Assembly (NCBI GenBank): GCA_902563505.1
Contig: CACEXK010000001.1
Coordinates: 1-64,000, forward strand
Reading direction: 5' to 3'
Length of the DNA: 64,000 nt
From: an uncultured Alphaproteobacteria bacterium
Lineage (GTDB): Bacteria; Pseudomonadota; Alphaproteobacteria; Methylaequorales; Methylaequoraceae
The notes below the pieces were generated by a model. The model had not been told where the DNA came from. It did no database searches and saw nothing but the letters and a program-made list of their open reading frames with translations. Positions 14,861-24,492 of the stretch are shown in pieces. Position 1 is the first letter of the stretch. The number at the start of each line of letters is the position of its first letter. Made by a program: the position numbers and the translations under genes.

Positions 14861-15559
14861 TTATGCTTTGGCTGTATCAGCTTTAGCAGCAGCCCAAATT
14901 ATCAAACCAAAAGCGATTTTGTTGACAAAGTCTGCTAGGTTATAAACCCAGTTTAATGTAGCTGGATCAGCTCCGGCACCTGATAGGTAACCTAAGAAAT
15001 AACCAATTGGATAAATTGACCATCCAATAGATACAATCCATTTCATTGCATTGAATGCACTTTTCATTCCTTCAGAATTACTTGAGGCGCTTGCTTGAGC
15101 AGCTTCACCTGCAAATACTTCATAAAGAATGTAAATCCATCCTGCTATACCGACAATAAAACCAACAACAGGGTTTATATATCCGGCTTCTCCCATAAAA
15201 CCGCCAACAAGCATAATAATTGTACCTATTAACAGTCTCCAGAAAATACCTGCTGATGCTGCTCCAACTGCTGCTAGAATTAAGTAAAATTCTACCATTT
15301 GAAGTGGTACAGTAAGCAACCAATCAATATATCTGTATACTAGGGGTGATTCACCTGTAGAGACCCATACATCTCTCATGTAAAAGTAGTGAACAGCGGC
15401 AATTAGCGTAACAAGTCCTGCTACTCTAACAGAAGTTTGCCAATGTTTAGAAACACTGTTGCCTTCAAGAAAGAAGAATGCAGTGGAAGCAACCATTCCG
15501 ATTGAGATAATCCAAAATGATACACCCACGAAATCTTCTGGCTTAAGCATATAGTCCAT
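14861..15559 (-). CDS. Proteorhodopsin, predicted blue-absorbing proton pump
   Basis: Seven-helix retinal protein, 232 residues. D79 (proton acceptor), T83 and E90 (donor) give the DTE pattern of outward proton pumps. H57 matches the His that pairs with the acceptor, and K214 in ADFVNKIAFG is the Schiff-base lysine. The tuning site (position 105 in SAR86 proteorhodopsin) is Q87, associated with blue absorption. The protein starts at the level of helix A without a cleavable signal peptide; a stop codon seven codons upstream excludes an N-terminal extension. Start supported by AAAGGA 7 nt upstream. Codon use is less A-rich than that of neighbouring genes, suggesting strong expression. Confidence 0.97.
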   Translation of the reverse strand: MDYMLKPEDFVGVSFWIISIGMVASTAFFFLEGNSVSKHWQTSVRVAGLVTLIAAVHYFYMRDVWVSTGESPLVYRYIDWLLTVPLQMVEFYLILAAVGAASAGIFWRLLIGTIIMLVGGFMGEAGYINPVVGFIVGIAGWIYILYEVFAGEAAQASASSNSEGMKSAFNAMKWIVSIGWSIYPIGYFLGYLSGAGADPATLNWVYNLADFVNKIAFGLIIWAAAKADTAKA

Positions 15560-18363: not shown

Positions 18364-19728
18364 CTACCAGAAGAAGAATGCACCAACAGAAACGTTAGTA
18401 GATTCTTGAGATCCACCAGCATGCCAGTGAGCTTCAGTGTACGAACCTTCAGCAATAACTCTGAAATCTTCAGTTACATTATGCCAAATCATACCCATGT
18501 GAGACTCAACATAGTTTTGTAGTGCAGAAGTTCTTGTATTACTTGCGTCTATGTTGTTCACATCACCCCAGTCTTCACCTGTTAACACTTGATGGTTAGA
18601 ACCATAAGAGTAACCTAGGTTAGTACCTTGACCAAAGTCATATGTTGCTTGTAAGTATCCACCATAAAAGTGTCTAGCCTTACCTCTGTCATCAAGAGAC
18701 CCAGAATACGCACCGTTCAAGTTTCCTTGAAACTGCATACCAAGACCTACATTGTAGAAACCAGTAGCAACGAAAGTCAAACCTTGGAAAGTCATTTTTG
18801 TACCGAAACCAACAGCTCCAACTGAAACATCGTCAGAGTAGTCTCCGTCAATTGTTGTACCAACAGCCTGATTACCTAGGTTAAGCACGTCAAAAGAGAG
18901 TGCTTCTGCTTGAGTTCTATCGACATTTTGATATTGACCGTCTACCCACCAATAAGTGCCTAGATCACCAACATCAAAAGATAAATCTAACTGAGCTTCA
19001 ACTCTTGGAGTACTATGTTGAGTAGCATCTGCTGCACCGTTTGATAGGATGTCAGTTGCTTGCATAATACCAACTTTTGCTCCGATAGGACCAAGTCCAG
19101 GAGTTGTCCATGTAATTTGCGGATACCAGTCAGCATATACATATCCAACACCAATTCTACCTAATGTTGTACCTGAAATACTACCAGCGGCCACACCAAC
19201 ACCAAATAATGTCATATCATTGACAATAGCGTTTGCGCCATGGATACCTAAACTTCTACCCATTAAAACTGAACCCCAAGATCCAGCAACAGAGAGTGAA
19301 GTTTCACGAATGTTTAACACGTTGTTATCAGCAGAGTCACCATTCGCGTTCATGTGAGTATAAAGACCTAAACGACCAGATACATCTAATCCATTTTTTG
19401 TAGGTGCTTTAACTGTGAACCCCCAAACATTTGGTAATAAACCAACTGAAATTGAAGAAAAATCTTCAGAACCAGCGGTAAGATCATTGGTACCTTGTCC
19501 ACTCATAACAACAGAAGATGCACTATCTCTTGTAGTATATGATTGGTTATTACCAACCCTCTCAATATTACCAGTTGAGGTGTGGTTATAGAATGCGTTA
19601 GCCGCACCATCGAATGAAACTTCCCAACCACTGTCACTCATAAGTAAAACTTTTGAATCAACATCAGTAGAAGAAAGAGCCATTACAGCAGGTATAGCAG
19701 CTAGAGCAATTTTCTTATTAATATTCAT
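18364..19728 (-). CDS. Outer-membrane porin
   Basis: 454 residues. A signal peptide of about 25 residues (MNINKKIALAAIPAVMALSS...) is followed by a barrel with alternating strands and a C-terminal aromatic (VGAFFFW), the insertion signal for the BAM complex. General diffusion porin of the Gram-negative type. The codon and base composition is visibly richer in G+C than its neighbours, and the start is preceded by a strong GGAAGGAAA ribosome site, both suggesting high expression. It has its own terminator. Being a separate unit, it is probably not the dedicated receptor of the TonB operon upstream. Confidence 0.88.
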   Translation of the reverse strand: MNINKKIALAAIPAVMALSSTDVDSKVLLMSDSGWEVSFDGAANAFYNHTSTGNIERVGNNQSYTTRDSASSVVMSGQGTNDLTAGSEDFSSISVGLLPNVWGFTVKAPTKNGLDVSGRLGLYTHMNANGDSADNNVLNIRETSLSVAGSWGSVLMGRSLGIHGANAIVNDMTLFGVGVAAGSISGTTLGRIGVGYVYADWYPQITWTTPGLGPIGAKVGIMQATDILSNGAADATQHSTPRVEAQLDLSFDVGDLGTYWWVDGQYQNVDRTQAEALSFDVLNLGNQAVGTTIDGDYSDDVSVGAVGFGTKMTFQGLTFVATGFYNVGLGMQFQGNLNGAYSGSLDDRGKARHFYGGYLQATYDFGQGTNLGYSYGSNHQVLTGEDWGDVNNIDASNTRTSALQNYVESHMGMIWHNVTEDFRVIAEGSYTEAHWHAGGSQESTNVSVGAFFFW

Positions 19729-19860: not shown

Positions 19861-20604
19861 CTACTTTAGTATGAAATTCACTGGAATCTTTATTTTTAGT
19901 AGCTTCCGATCATCAAACAACAACATAGGCGGGGGAGGAAAAATATATTTTCTTAAGATATTTTTAGTTGCATCCAATAATCTTTTTGGCCTTCTTGTAT
20001 CAAATTCCATTTTTTTTAAATCTCCATTAGAATCTATTGAAATTACTGCAATAATTGTTCCCTGTTCTCTTCTTTTGATTGATTGAATTGGGTATGATTT
20101 TGATGCAATAATATTTATTTCTTTAGAAATAAGTGAAAAATATGCCTTTAATTCTTTGCTAATTAAATCTGATTTTTTTCTACTTTCATTTGAAGGTAAT
20201 TGTTTTTTGATCGGTTTTACATTTTCTTGAGAATTAATTTTTTTTCTCGGTGAGACAACTTCTTGCTTTTTTTCGATTTCTTTTTTAATTGGTAATTCTT
20301 TTTTTATTGGGACTTCTTTTTTAATAGGTATACTCTTTTTTAGGGGCACATCTTTTTTTACTGGAGATTCTTTTTCTTTAGTAACTGGTTCTTTCAATTT
20401 TTTTTCATCTATTTCGTTTGTCTTTGGGGGTGCTTTAACATCAGGTCTGAATTTTTGGAATGTACTCAAGTCCATGACAAAAATTTCTTTTTCTTTGTTT
20501 TCTTTGAAAGATTGTATGAAACTAATCATAGAAAAATGAATTAGTATCGAAAAAAAACTAGCTAAAAAAAAAAAGTTAACTCTCAACATTTTTGTGCCTA
20601 ACAT
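19861..20604 (-). CDS. tonB: TonB energy-transducing protein
   Basis: 247 residues. N-terminal membrane helix containing SILIH (S19, H23), the SxxxH motif needed for coupling to ExbB/ExbD. Then comes a long Lys/Pro/Glu linker with repeated PIKKE units (about residues 75-115) to span the periplasm. The C-terminal TonB domain has YPIQSIKRREQG...IDSNGDLKK. Start ATG at 20604; a second ATG at 20589 is possible and has a weak AGG upstream. Last gene of the ABC-ExbB-ExbD-ExbD-TonB series and overlaps the second ExbD by 29 nt. No TonB-dependent receptor is in the window. Confidence 0.88.
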   Translation of the reverse strand: MLGTKMLRVNFFFLASFFSILIHFSMISFIQSFKENKEKEIFVMDLSTFQKFRPDVKAPPKTNEIDEKKLKEPVTKEKESPVKKDVPLKKSIPIKKEVPIKKELPIKKEIEKKQEVVSPRKKINSQENVKPIKKQLPSNESRKKSDLISKELKAYFSLISKEINIIASKSYPIQSIKRREQGTIIAVISIDSNGDLKKMEFDTRRPKRLLDATKNILRKYIFPPPPMLLFDDRKLLKIKIPVNFILK

Positions 20605-20995
20605 TCATTAATACTTTTTTAATACCTTTATCTTTTAAAAGCTCAATAATTTCATTAAGATTCTTTATTTTTGCATTTTTATCTACATTGAGTAATATTT
20701 TTGAATTTTCATCTAATTTAAATTTCAATAGTTCAGAAATTGTAATTTTTTGATCATTCCACTCTACAATTCCATTAGAATTAATAGAAATAGAATTAAA
20801 TGTTTTTTTGACCGATTGATTTTTTTTTACTCCATAAAATGATTCTGGCAGTGTTATTTTCTTATTATCTTTTTTTTGAATAACACCTGTCAAAAGAAAA
20901 AAAATAAGAAGTAAAAAAATTAAATTTATCATAGGAATCATATTGATTGATTCATTAAGATCTTTATTTTTTTTTTTATTTAATTTCAGTATCAT
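20576..20995 (-). CDS. Second ExbD/TolR-like protein, lacking the membrane aspartate
   Basis: 139 residues: one N-terminal membrane helix (about 17-38) and a periplasmic ExbD domain. The helix reads IPMINLIFLLLIFFLL. The conserved protonatable Asp of ExbD/TolR/MotB is replaced by Asn24 (codon AAT). In the preceding gene it is a normal Asp18. I start at ATG 20995; the upstream TTG at 21001 is less likely. It overlaps the first ExbD by 20 nt. It probably forms a heterodimer with it inside the ExbB pore. Confidence 0.85.
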   Translation of the reverse strand: MILKLNKKKNKDLNESINMIPMINLIFLLLIFFLLTGVIQKKDNKKITLPESFYGVKKNQSVKKTFNSISINSNGIVEWNDQKITISELLKFKLDENSKILLNVDKNAKIKNLNEIIELLKDKGIKKVLMNVRHKNVES

Positions 20996-21371
20996 TAGCA
21001 AAGGTTACTTCGTTGATTTGATTTTTTTTAAATAAATCCAACAAAAATATTAATATTTCAATTTCTGAAGTATCATCATTCAGAATTACAACATTTTTAA
21101 AATTATTACTTTCCCATAGTTTTAAAATCTCCGATTCTATTAAATCTTTATCTACCTTTTTTTTATCAATAAAGTATTTATTATTTTTAATAAAAACATT
21201 AATGGTTTTCGGATCACTTGATTGAGTATTTATTTTGTTTTCAATTGAAAATTTTACTTCTCTTCTCTCTGAAAAATTTGTTGCAAGCATAAAAAAAACA
21301 AGCATTAAAAAAATAATATCTATTAAAGGAATAATATTAATCTTTAATGATTTTTTGTTAATCTTATACAT
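20976..21371 (-). CDS. exbD: ExbD/TolR-type biopolymer transport protein
   Basis: 131 residues with a single membrane helix (about 11-32) carrying IPLIDIIFLMLVFFML; D18 is the proton-translocating Asp. The periplasmic part contains the repeated beta-alpha pattern of ExbD (KNNKYFIDKKKVD, KNVVILNDD). Works with ExbB as the proton-driven motor for TonB. Starts 17 nt after exbB and overlaps the second, Asn-containing ExbD by 20 nt. Confidence 0.9.
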   Translation of the reverse strand: MYKINKKSLKINIIPLIDIIFLMLVFFMLATNFSERREVKFSIENKINTQSSDPKTINVFIKNNKYFIDKKKVDKDLIESEILKLWESNNFKNVVILNDDTSEIEILIFLLDLFKKNQINEVTFANDTEIK

Positions 21372-21388: not shown

Positions 21389-21997
21389 TTAATTTTTTTT
21401 TGAGAGTTGTCCCAAAAAGAATTCCAAATTTTTTTGAAAATCGTATATTTTTTTTTCATAATAATAATGACTTATTAATGCTGGTATCGCAACTATTAAA
21501 CCCATTGCAGTTGTTAATAAGGCAGTCCATATTCCACCTGCTAAAATTGAGGGATCAACTAAGCTTCCACCAATTTCCAATTCATTGAATGAGTCTATCA
21601 TTCCGATAACGGTTCCTAAAAGACCAATTAGTGGACTAACTTGACCTATGATTTCAAGTGAAGGTAAAAGTTTGTGAGCTTTATTAAACTCAGAATCTAG
21701 TACAAGATTTAGTTCATCTACTTGTTCGGTTTTTTTGTCTCTTTTTTCAATTATTTGGATGATATCAACTAATAGTGAAATTTGACTTGATGACCCCAAA
21801 TCCTGAATAGAGACTTTGAAATCAGATAAGTTTTTTGATTCTTTTAAGTGCTTAGAAAATTTTTTAAAATTCAAATTACTGAAGAAATAAATTTCAAAAA
21901 ATTTGTAAATAATTATAGCTAATCCAATTATTGACATTACCAGTAGGAGCGAAAATATTATTCCTCCTTTATCTAAATAATTCTGAAATTCATTCAT
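21389..21997 (-). CDS. exbB: ExbB/TolQ/MotA-type proton channel protein
   Basis: 202 residues, three membrane helices. The conserved core [17 protein letters not shown] and [27 protein letters not shown] holds the channel threonines of ExbB. It forms the pentameric stator around the ExbD helices. I call it ExbB rather than TolQ because the neighbouring genes are ExbD, ExbD and TonB, not TolA/TolB/Pal. It starts 19 nt after the ABC ATPase gene, so the motor is likely co-transcribed with the ABC importer. Confidence 0.9.
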
Positions 21998-22016: not shown

Positions 22017-22772
22017 TTAAACTATACCACCAAGTATTTTAGGATATTTTTTTTTAAGATTATTATATTCAGCACTAACATTTTTGTTATCAACATTTAA
22101 AGGATTTCTATTTGACTTAACTTTATAATCAAAAACGACTGTACCTGGTTTTTTTGAAAAAAAAAGTATTCTGTCTGAGAGTAATAATGCTTCTTTAAGA
22201 CTATGGGTAATTAGGATGATTGTTATAGGTTTCATTTTCCAATAATTTATTAACACATCATATAGATTTTCAGAGGTCGGTTGATCCAATGAGACAAAAG
22301 GCTCATCCATTAGTAAAATACTTGGTTTATTTATTAAAGCTCTTGCAAGAGAAACTTTCCTTCTCATCCCACCTGAAATAGCTTTTGGGTAGAAATCTAT
22401 AAATTCTGAAAGCCCAAAGTTATTTAATAAATCATTTATATCGCCTTCTATATTTGTTTTTTTCTGGCTAACCAATTCTATGTTTTCTCTCACAGTAAGC
22501 CAAGGCAATAACCTTGAGGATTGAAAAACATAACTTATATTTTCTTCAATATCTTTTCTAGTTTTGCCATTCAATTTTATATTTTGTTTATCTGCAGAAA
22601 TCAATCCACCAATTATGTTCATAAGTGTTGTTTTTCCACATCCTGAAGGTCCAACAATGCACACAAACTCTTTAGAATTAATTTTGATATCAATATTCTT
22701 GAGTACATTGATTTTAGAATTATCTAATTTATTAATAAAGTTTTTTTCTTTGATATTAATTTCGAAATTCAT
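22017..22772 (-). CDS. ABC transporter ATP-binding protein, NitT/TauT (SsuB) type
   Basis: 251 residues. Walker [10 protein letters not shown] at 41-49, the Q-loop in [16 protein letters not shown], the signature [15 protein letters not shown], Walker [13 protein letters not shown], and the switch His in [11 protein letters not shown]. Matches the nitrate/sulfonate/taurine importer class. It forms the importer with the permease at 22775 and the binding protein at 23527. Substrate unknown. Confidence 0.93.
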
Positions 22773-22774
22773 TT

Positions 22775-23524
22775 TTACTTCCAGATTGATATTTTTCTCT
22801 CAAAAGGTCTAACTAAAATAAATTCAACAAATATTATAAGTAAAACGAATGCAAGTGTATAAGCTAAAATTCCAGAAATGTCAAAAAACTGGAAAAATCC
22901 ATATAACTTAAATCCGACACCATTACTTCTTCCAAGAAGTTCTACAACTAAAACTATTTTCCATATGAGAGAAAGCCCAGACCTTGCTGATGAAAGCAAA
23001 TATGGGTACAATTGTGGAAATATAACTTTTAGGTAAAATCTTTTTTTTGGTATTCTGTAGAACTTTGCAACTTCGATATAGTCTCTTTCAATAGCTCTTG
23101 CTCCCTCTCGCATTATTACAGCAACCATAGGAATTTTATTAAGTGAAACAGCAAGAATTGCTGCAATTTCATTCAAACCAAACCATACATAACAAAGTAT
23201 TATAATTACTAAAGCAGGGACATTGAGACCTAGAATAAGCCAATCATCAAGAAAAACATTTATTTTTTTATTTCTTCCCATATAAATACCAAAGAATGTT
23301 CCAATAAACATCGCAATTAGAAATGAGATAAAAACTCTTTTTAAAGTTATTGAAGTATGAATAAAAAGCTCATAGCTTTCAGCTTCTTCAATTATTTTTA
23401 AAAATACTTCCTTGGGGCCAGGAAGCAAATCTACATTGACAACCAAACTTGATACTTGCCATATAATAAAAAAAAGCAGAACGGAAGCAGACCTCAAGAT
23501 CGCATTAGATTGAAGTGAGTTCAT
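22775..23524 (-). CDS. ABC transporter permease, NitT/TauT (SsuC) type
   Basis: 249 residues with about six membrane helices. The cytoplasmic coupling loop has the EAA-like motif EVAKFYRIPKKRFYLKVIFP. I start at ATG 23524 (MNSLQSNAIL), 2 nt after the binding-protein stop; a TTG at 23539 inside the previous gene is less likely. Belongs to the BPD-transporter permease family and pairs with the downstream ATPase, 2 nt away. Confidence 0.92.
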   Translation of the reverse strand: MNSLQSNAILRSASVLLFFIIWQVSSLVVNVDLLPGPKEVFLKIIEEAESYELFIHTSITLKRVFISFLIAMFIGTFFGIYMGRNKKINVFLDDWLILGLNVPALVIIILCYVWFGLNEIAAILAVSLNKIPMVAVIMREGARAIERDYIEVAKFYRIPKKRFYLKVIFPQLYPYLLSSARSGLSLIWKIVLVVELLGRSNGVGFKLYGFFQFFDISGILAYTLAFVLLIIFVEFILVRPFERKISIWK

Positions 23525-23526
23525 GA

Positions 23527-24492
23527 TTAATTTTTCCAAAAAGTTCCTGGAGATAATTTTTCAGCTTTACCGACTAGTTCTTTCCCTCCAATCTTTGAAA
23601 GAATGGAGTAAAGTTTTTTTGATCCCTCAAGTTGTGCCGTTGTGAAATCCTCTGTGGGGATACCTTCTCTATATATTTCGCGAAGTTTGACAAAAATTGA
23701 ATCCTCAGCTACATTCATATTTGGTCTGATTTTCTCCCAGATCTCATCGGATTCTAACATTATTCTTTTAGCTTCTTTTGAAGCCTCAAGAAAATTATTC
23801 AATTTAGTTTGGTTGTTCATACCCCACTCATCTCTAAAAACCCAACCAATAACTGGGACACCTTTAGGAATTCCAAGTTGGGTTAATATGTCATTAATAT
23901 TTATTGCTTTTTTGAACTTTTTATCAGCAAGTAATTTTGCTTGGTAAGGCCAGTAAGTCAGGATTGCATCAAAACTCTCCTGTTTCATTTTTTTATTTAA
24001 GAGTGGTGGAGCCCCAAAAATAGGTTTGCTAAGTTTTTTTAAATCCTCTCCGTGCTTTTGTTTGTAAAATGCTTGGAAAATAAGCCAGCCTTTATCAACC
24101 TGACCTCCTGCAATACCAATTTTTTTTCCCTTTAAATCTGATTCGGAACGGATTGTGGAACTTTCTGTGACTATAAGTCCTCCAGCAGCCATTGAATGAG
24201 GAACAAAAGAAAACAACCTGTTTTCGCTTCTTTGTCTGGAAACCCAAAACCAATCTGTAATGATAATGTCGACTGCTCTTCCTTGTAAAGCAACAGCAGC
24301 TGCATTTTTACTCGCAAGTTCTACAATCTCTAAATCAATTCCAAACTTTTTATCTAAGCCAGTATCTTTGATTAACTTCAATTCCCAATTAGCACTTCCA
24401 TACTGAAGAGAACCAACCTTAATTTTTTCGGCTAATAAATCACTGAATTGTCCTAGTGATAAAATAACTATAGTAATTAAAATTTTTAACAT
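23527..24492 (-). CDS. Periplasmic substrate-binding protein, NitT/TauT (SsuA/THI5-like)
   Basis: 321 residues with a signal peptide (about 1-21, ending LLAEKI). The mature protein begins KVGSLQYGSANWELKLIKDTGL and has the family's AAAVALQGRAVDIIITDWFW and LKGKKIGIAGGQ segments, as in aliphatic sulfonate, taurine, nitrate and pyrimidine-precursor binding proteins. The ligand cannot be told from sequence. First gene of the seven-gene operon that continues through ABC, ExbB, two ExbD and TonB, which suggests a scarce or bulky substrate that also needs TonB-driven outer-membrane uptake. Confidence 0.9.
   Translation of the reverse strand: MLKILITIVILSLGQFSDLLAEKIKVGSLQYGSANWELKLIKDTGLDKKFGIDLEIVELASKNAAAVALQGRAVDIIITDWFWVSRQRSENRLFSFVPHSMAAGGLIVTESSTIRSESDLKGKKIGIAGGQVDKGWLIFQAFYKQKHGEDLKKLSKPIFGAPPLLNKKMKQESFDAILTYWPYQAKLLADKKFKKAININDILTQLGIPKGVPVIGWVFRDEWGMNNQTKLNNFLEASKEAKRIMLESDEIWEKIRPNMNVAEDSIFVKLREIYREGIPTEDFTTAQLEGSKKLYSILSKIGGKELVGKAEKLSPGTFWKN

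Follow-up and report, generated by a model that had tools for sequence, protein, structure and literature searches.

Tandem ExbD genes with aspartate and asparagine at the proton-carrying membrane site: a conserved class of Ton loci, mainly in Alphaproteobacteria

In the ExbB5-ExbD2 Ton motor of E. coli and Serratia, the dimer is made from a single ExbD gene and thus contains two copies of the membrane aspartate, Asp25. Models of ExbBD, TolQR and MotAB assume 36 degrees of rotation per proton and a channel that alternates between the two essential aspartates (PMC12215075, PMC12905483). Such a motor is assumed to require two identical proton carriers, and an Asp/Asn pair of ExbD proteins is a natural test of how it turns. 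We describe such a pair in a 64,000-nucleotide stretch of alphaproteobacterial DNA (the window). Its ExbB, ExbD and TonB proteins are homologous to those of E. coli and Serratia, the site concerned corresponds to Asp25 and the periplasmic fold matches, but the window has two ExbD genes with one Asp between them.

The ExbD pair and its genomic surroundings

ExbB, both ExbDs and a TonB-like protein were encoded together in the window, and all four exceeded their Pfam cut-offs (25.4 bits for ExbD, PF02472; Table 1). The ExbD genes overlapped by approximately 20 nt and were flanked by ExbB and the TonB-like gene. ExbD2 starts at ATG or possibly at an upstream TTG (position 21001), from which the Asn would be residue 26. 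When a profile of ExbD2 orthologues was aligned to the solved E. coli and Serratia ExbD chains, the Asn fell on Asp25. The essential membrane Asp was present in ExbD1 and absent in ExbD2; the system retains one Asp-bearing gene. The original prediction of neighbouring ExbD genes with D18 in one and N24 (codon AAT) in the next was confirmed by Pfam, the codons and this alignment. Against the TolR family, the two ExbDs scored 42.5 and 38.0 bits and did not reach the cut-off of 127.3.

Table 1. Features of the window, with positions, strand and supporting evidence
Feature	Position	Strand	Evidence or remark
Porin-like outer-membrane protein	18364-19728	-	weak PF13609, under cut-off; downstream, syntenic in family
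TonB-like, N-terminal membrane helix and TonB C-terminal domain	19861-20604	-	PF03544 30.8 bits, above cut-off
ExbD2, Asn-bearing	20576-20995	-	PF02472 67.6 bits; IPMINLIF, N24 from ATG
ExbD2 Asn codon AAT	20924-20926	-	E. coli ExbD Asp25-equivalent site
ExbD1, Asp-bearing	20976-21371	-	PF02472 70.9 bits; IPLIDIIF, D18
ExbD1 Asp codon GAT	21318-21320	-	residue 18
ExbB, pentamer subunit	21389-21997	-	PF01618 91.5 bits
ABC importer (ATPase, permease, NMT1/THI5-like binding protein)	22017-24492	-	Pfam; upstream, syntenic in family

In the window ExbB, the equivalents of E. coli T148 and T181 were still Thr, and the equivalent of E176 was Thr. Loss of Glu176 was rejected as a hallmark of D/N motors, since the position varied between T, E, V, Q, A and L among D/N systems. 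The genome to which the window belongs encoded three TonB-dependent receptors. The ABC importer adjoined the Ton genes throughout the family, and its substrate is possibly shared with a TonB-dependent receptor. Elsewhere in the window (14861-15559), an opsin-like seven-helix protein was judged by eye to be a proteorhodopsin.

Conservation and spread of the Asp/Asn pair

ExbD-family genes were found in 29 of the 32 genomes of the window's family. The typical set was the tandem pair and one stronger, TolR-like gene, located 33 kb from the pair where one contig held both. The pair was part of a syntenic block encoding a binding protein, permease, ATPase, ExbB, ExbD, ExbD, TonB and porin. The first ExbD was of the IPLID/VPLID type in every pair read, and the second carried P-M-I-N in all readable genomes (25/25). 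The ExbD2 proteins of the family were only 36-51% identical to that of the window and the Asn was invariant nonetheless, which is far beyond chance.

When the ExbD2 alignment was used to scan 84,980 species, each represented by one genome, further Alphaproteobacteria and Nitrospinota proved to have the pair, and a class-level search combined with reading of the loci found it across the Alphaproteobacteria, the class of the window. Within Pseudomonadota, approximately 29 GTDB-type families had the order ExbB-ExbD(Asp)-ExbD(Asn)-TonB, almost all of them alphaproteobacterial (27 in the window's class and two elsewhere in the phylum); this order also occurred in Nitrospinota and in cultured roseobacters, e.g. 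Phaeobacter inhibens and Leisingera. The original prediction had treated a single locus and proposed a search of homologous operons; the locus proved real, and the search revealed a wide, conserved class instead. In total, 85 distinct D/N, 21 D/D and one D/S tandem pairs were collected, and the Asp gene preceded the Asn gene in all 85 D/N pairs. A seemingly inverted order (L250) was an artefact of an upstream-extended ORF. A seeming ExbD1-ExbD2 fusion (one 287-aa ORF in L220/L175) was also discarded, as the end of ExbD1 was out of frame, which fits a one-base assembly indel. The Asn codon in the wider class was AAT in 41 cases and AAC in 12.

The Asn motif was also searched as a DNA pattern, Asn-only by design, which matched 36 of 385 class genomes and 17 of 399 phylum genomes, both counts being lower bounds; the reversed-pattern control gave no matches. 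At the loci reached with this pattern, the Asp-type ExbD was a separate neighbouring gene, except in G154, which had an apparent indel, and in G258, where the locus lay at the edge of a contig. Some genomes contained a second, more divergent ExbD pair, and those at L279-L284 were likewise D/N. Plasmid searches with the ExbD2 of L205 and L217 gave no matches.

In the class search, tandem pairs with a single ExbB were D/N in 18 cases and D/D in one, a ratio that may be biased by a query built from Asn-type proteins, though the profile weighs a single site little; pairs with two ExbBs were never D/N and nine times D/D (Fisher p = 1.4e-6). Among one-ExbB pairs, only that at L187:2504-3383 was found to carry two Asps; a TonB-like gene lay downstream, and the tree grouped the second ExbD of this pair with proteins of the Asn type, perhaps reflecting a reversal. 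In the best tree, most Asn-type ExbDs formed one group, with those of Nitrospinota apart, but a single clade was not rejected (p-AU 0.31), and the Asn-type ExbDs may have arisen once or more than once.

Other departures were also seen. A gammaproteobacterial Asp/Ser pair followed by TonB (L116:504-1314) represents another non-acidic replacement at the Asp site. An Omnitrophota Asn-type ExbD lay beside ExbB (L075:4962-5357), with no Asp partner found within the locus. A Ruegeria conchae plasmid (L289:7915-10760) encoded ExbB and an Asp/Asp ExbD pair; the neighbouring genes included one for DUF4384 and others for type VI secretion, but no annotated TonB.

A candidate motor with one proton site

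Ten near-complete genomes from other families contained exactly three ExbD genes, namely the pair and a stronger match taken as TolR. Window-family genomes of >90% completeness likewise had three; G014 showed the pair alone. TonB-dependent receptors were present in 13 of 14 such genomes. Three genomes (G592, G058 and G155) had a single receptor, which adjoined the pair, and one genome with the pair (G226) showed no TonB-dependent receptor. Operons combining the pair, TonB and a receptor occurred in Nitrospinota and in a marine alphaproteobacterium. At L261 the pair was located within a complete heme-uptake operon, and on a plasmid of Phaeobacter inhibens it was accompanied by TonB, by a receptor and by an iron-type ABC importer. 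Since the pair was the only ExbD set besides TolR in many near-complete genomes and receptors were present, the D/N system is very probably the working Ton motor, although TolQR might cross-energise TonB.

We infer that the ExbB pentamer would hold a heterodimer of one ExbD1 and one ExbD2. Protons would be carried by ExbD1 alone, at one site per dimer, and the Asn of ExbD2 would act as a neutral stand-in for protonated Asp; MotB D22N has been described as a protonation mimic (PMC9389320). The ExbD2 helix would then pass the hydrophobic collar without proton uptake or release. If the step of 36 degrees per proton applied, a turn would cost five protons rather than ten. The dimer would be permanently asymmetric, and the pull on TonB would be transmitted by the usual contacts between ExbD and TonB in the periplasm. 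We consider this arrangement, with Asn mimicking protonated Asp, the most plausible account of the sequence data, if with some reserve. The chances seem about even that 5:2 motors built on an obligate Asp/Asn heterodimer are widespread, with one proton site, permanent asymmetry and half the protons per turn, such that alternation between two Asps would be unneeded.

No Asp or Glu was found in 62 distinct Asn-type membrane segments, which rules out relocation of the acid within the membrane segment. In ExbD2 the residue before the conserved Pro was usually Ile, Val or Leu, against Thr or Ala in most ExbD1s. The structure of ExbD2 was predicted with moderate confidence (mean pLDDT 70); the modelled periplasmic domain was similar to that of ExbD in solved structures, some of which contain TonB or a D-box peptide.

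The one-Asp motor has to be weighed against a 2026 review according to which the Asp is absolutely required (PMC12905483), and against the models in which two Asps alternate (PMC12215075, PMC12905483). The D/D pair at L187, the genome G226 with no receptor seen and the Asn-type ExbD at L075 with no partner found also speak against it. ExbD1 could instead form a working Asp/Asp homodimer, with ExbD2 as an accessory or regulatory protein (a brake, or a contact to TonB or the cell wall) in separate or inactive complexes. A tandem exbD2 of Xanthomonas is dispensable for iron uptake and has another role (PMC3551730), and ExbD periplasmic domains could contact TonB whatever the state of the membrane Asp. 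However, no readable family member lacked ExbD2, the gene for which overlapped exbD1, and most of the 18 invariant columns of ExbD2 were in the membrane segment, not in the periplasmic domain, as expected if the ExbD2 helix sits in the ExbB pore. We regard the accessory role as unlikely, though deserving of attention. The original prediction had left the choice between a single Asp per dimer and a structural or regulatory second protein; with the pair as the sole non-TolR ExbD set in many near-complete genomes that have receptors, the former is now better supported.

A higher or different assembly, e.g. 6:3 or two motors, with Asn-type subunits as place-fillers, appears improbable: the 2026 review mentions a 6:3 assembly reported for E. 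coli ExbBD, but holds 5:2 to be the physiological stoichiometry (PMC12905483). Sequencing error, recent mutation or a decaying copy can practically be dismissed, since, although the assembly of the window's genome has a completeness of only 86.8%, nothing was found in favour and the reading frames were intact, both Asn codons were in use, and Asp, sought in the second gene of close relatives, was absent from all readable ones, with Asn in 25/25 family genomes and approximately 29 families.

Comparison with known tandem ExbD systems

We found no description of an Asp/Asn ExbD class in the open-access literature, which is weak evidence of absence; in a term search of the 2026 review (PMC12905483), ExbD heterodimers and ExbD2 were not mentioned. 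The conserved pair in cultured roseobacters makes models of two-Asp alternation directly testable, and in an Asp/Asn motor the two halves of the dimer would be distinguishable in structures. The pair also suggests that evolution may have adjusted the number of protons spent on each pull.

The hmu operon of Ruegeria TM1040 (exbB, exbD1, exbD1a, tonB) resembles the D/N heme-uptake operon L261 in gene content; hmuR is needed for heme uptake in this strain (PMC5225302). Two-ExbB TonB systems of the window's class (L180, L182-184, L188, L189, L191, L192 and L213) also have adjacent ExbD genes, but differ in that one ExbB is long and the other short, and in that each ExbD carries the Asp. Tandem ExbD pairs of Bacteroidota are Asp/Asp, unlike that of the window. 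The Myxococcus gliding motor AglRQS combines one TolQ-like with two TolR-like subunits, which may form hetero- or homodimers; in contrast to the window, both TolR-like subunits are stated to carry the Asp (PMC9389320). Sphingobium SYK-6 likewise has ExbB, ExbD1 and ExbD2 in one operon with TonB, and this system has been implicated in uptake through receptors, but there each of the two ExbDs is stated to retain Asp-25 (PMC8599685), whereas the second ExbD of the window carries Asn.
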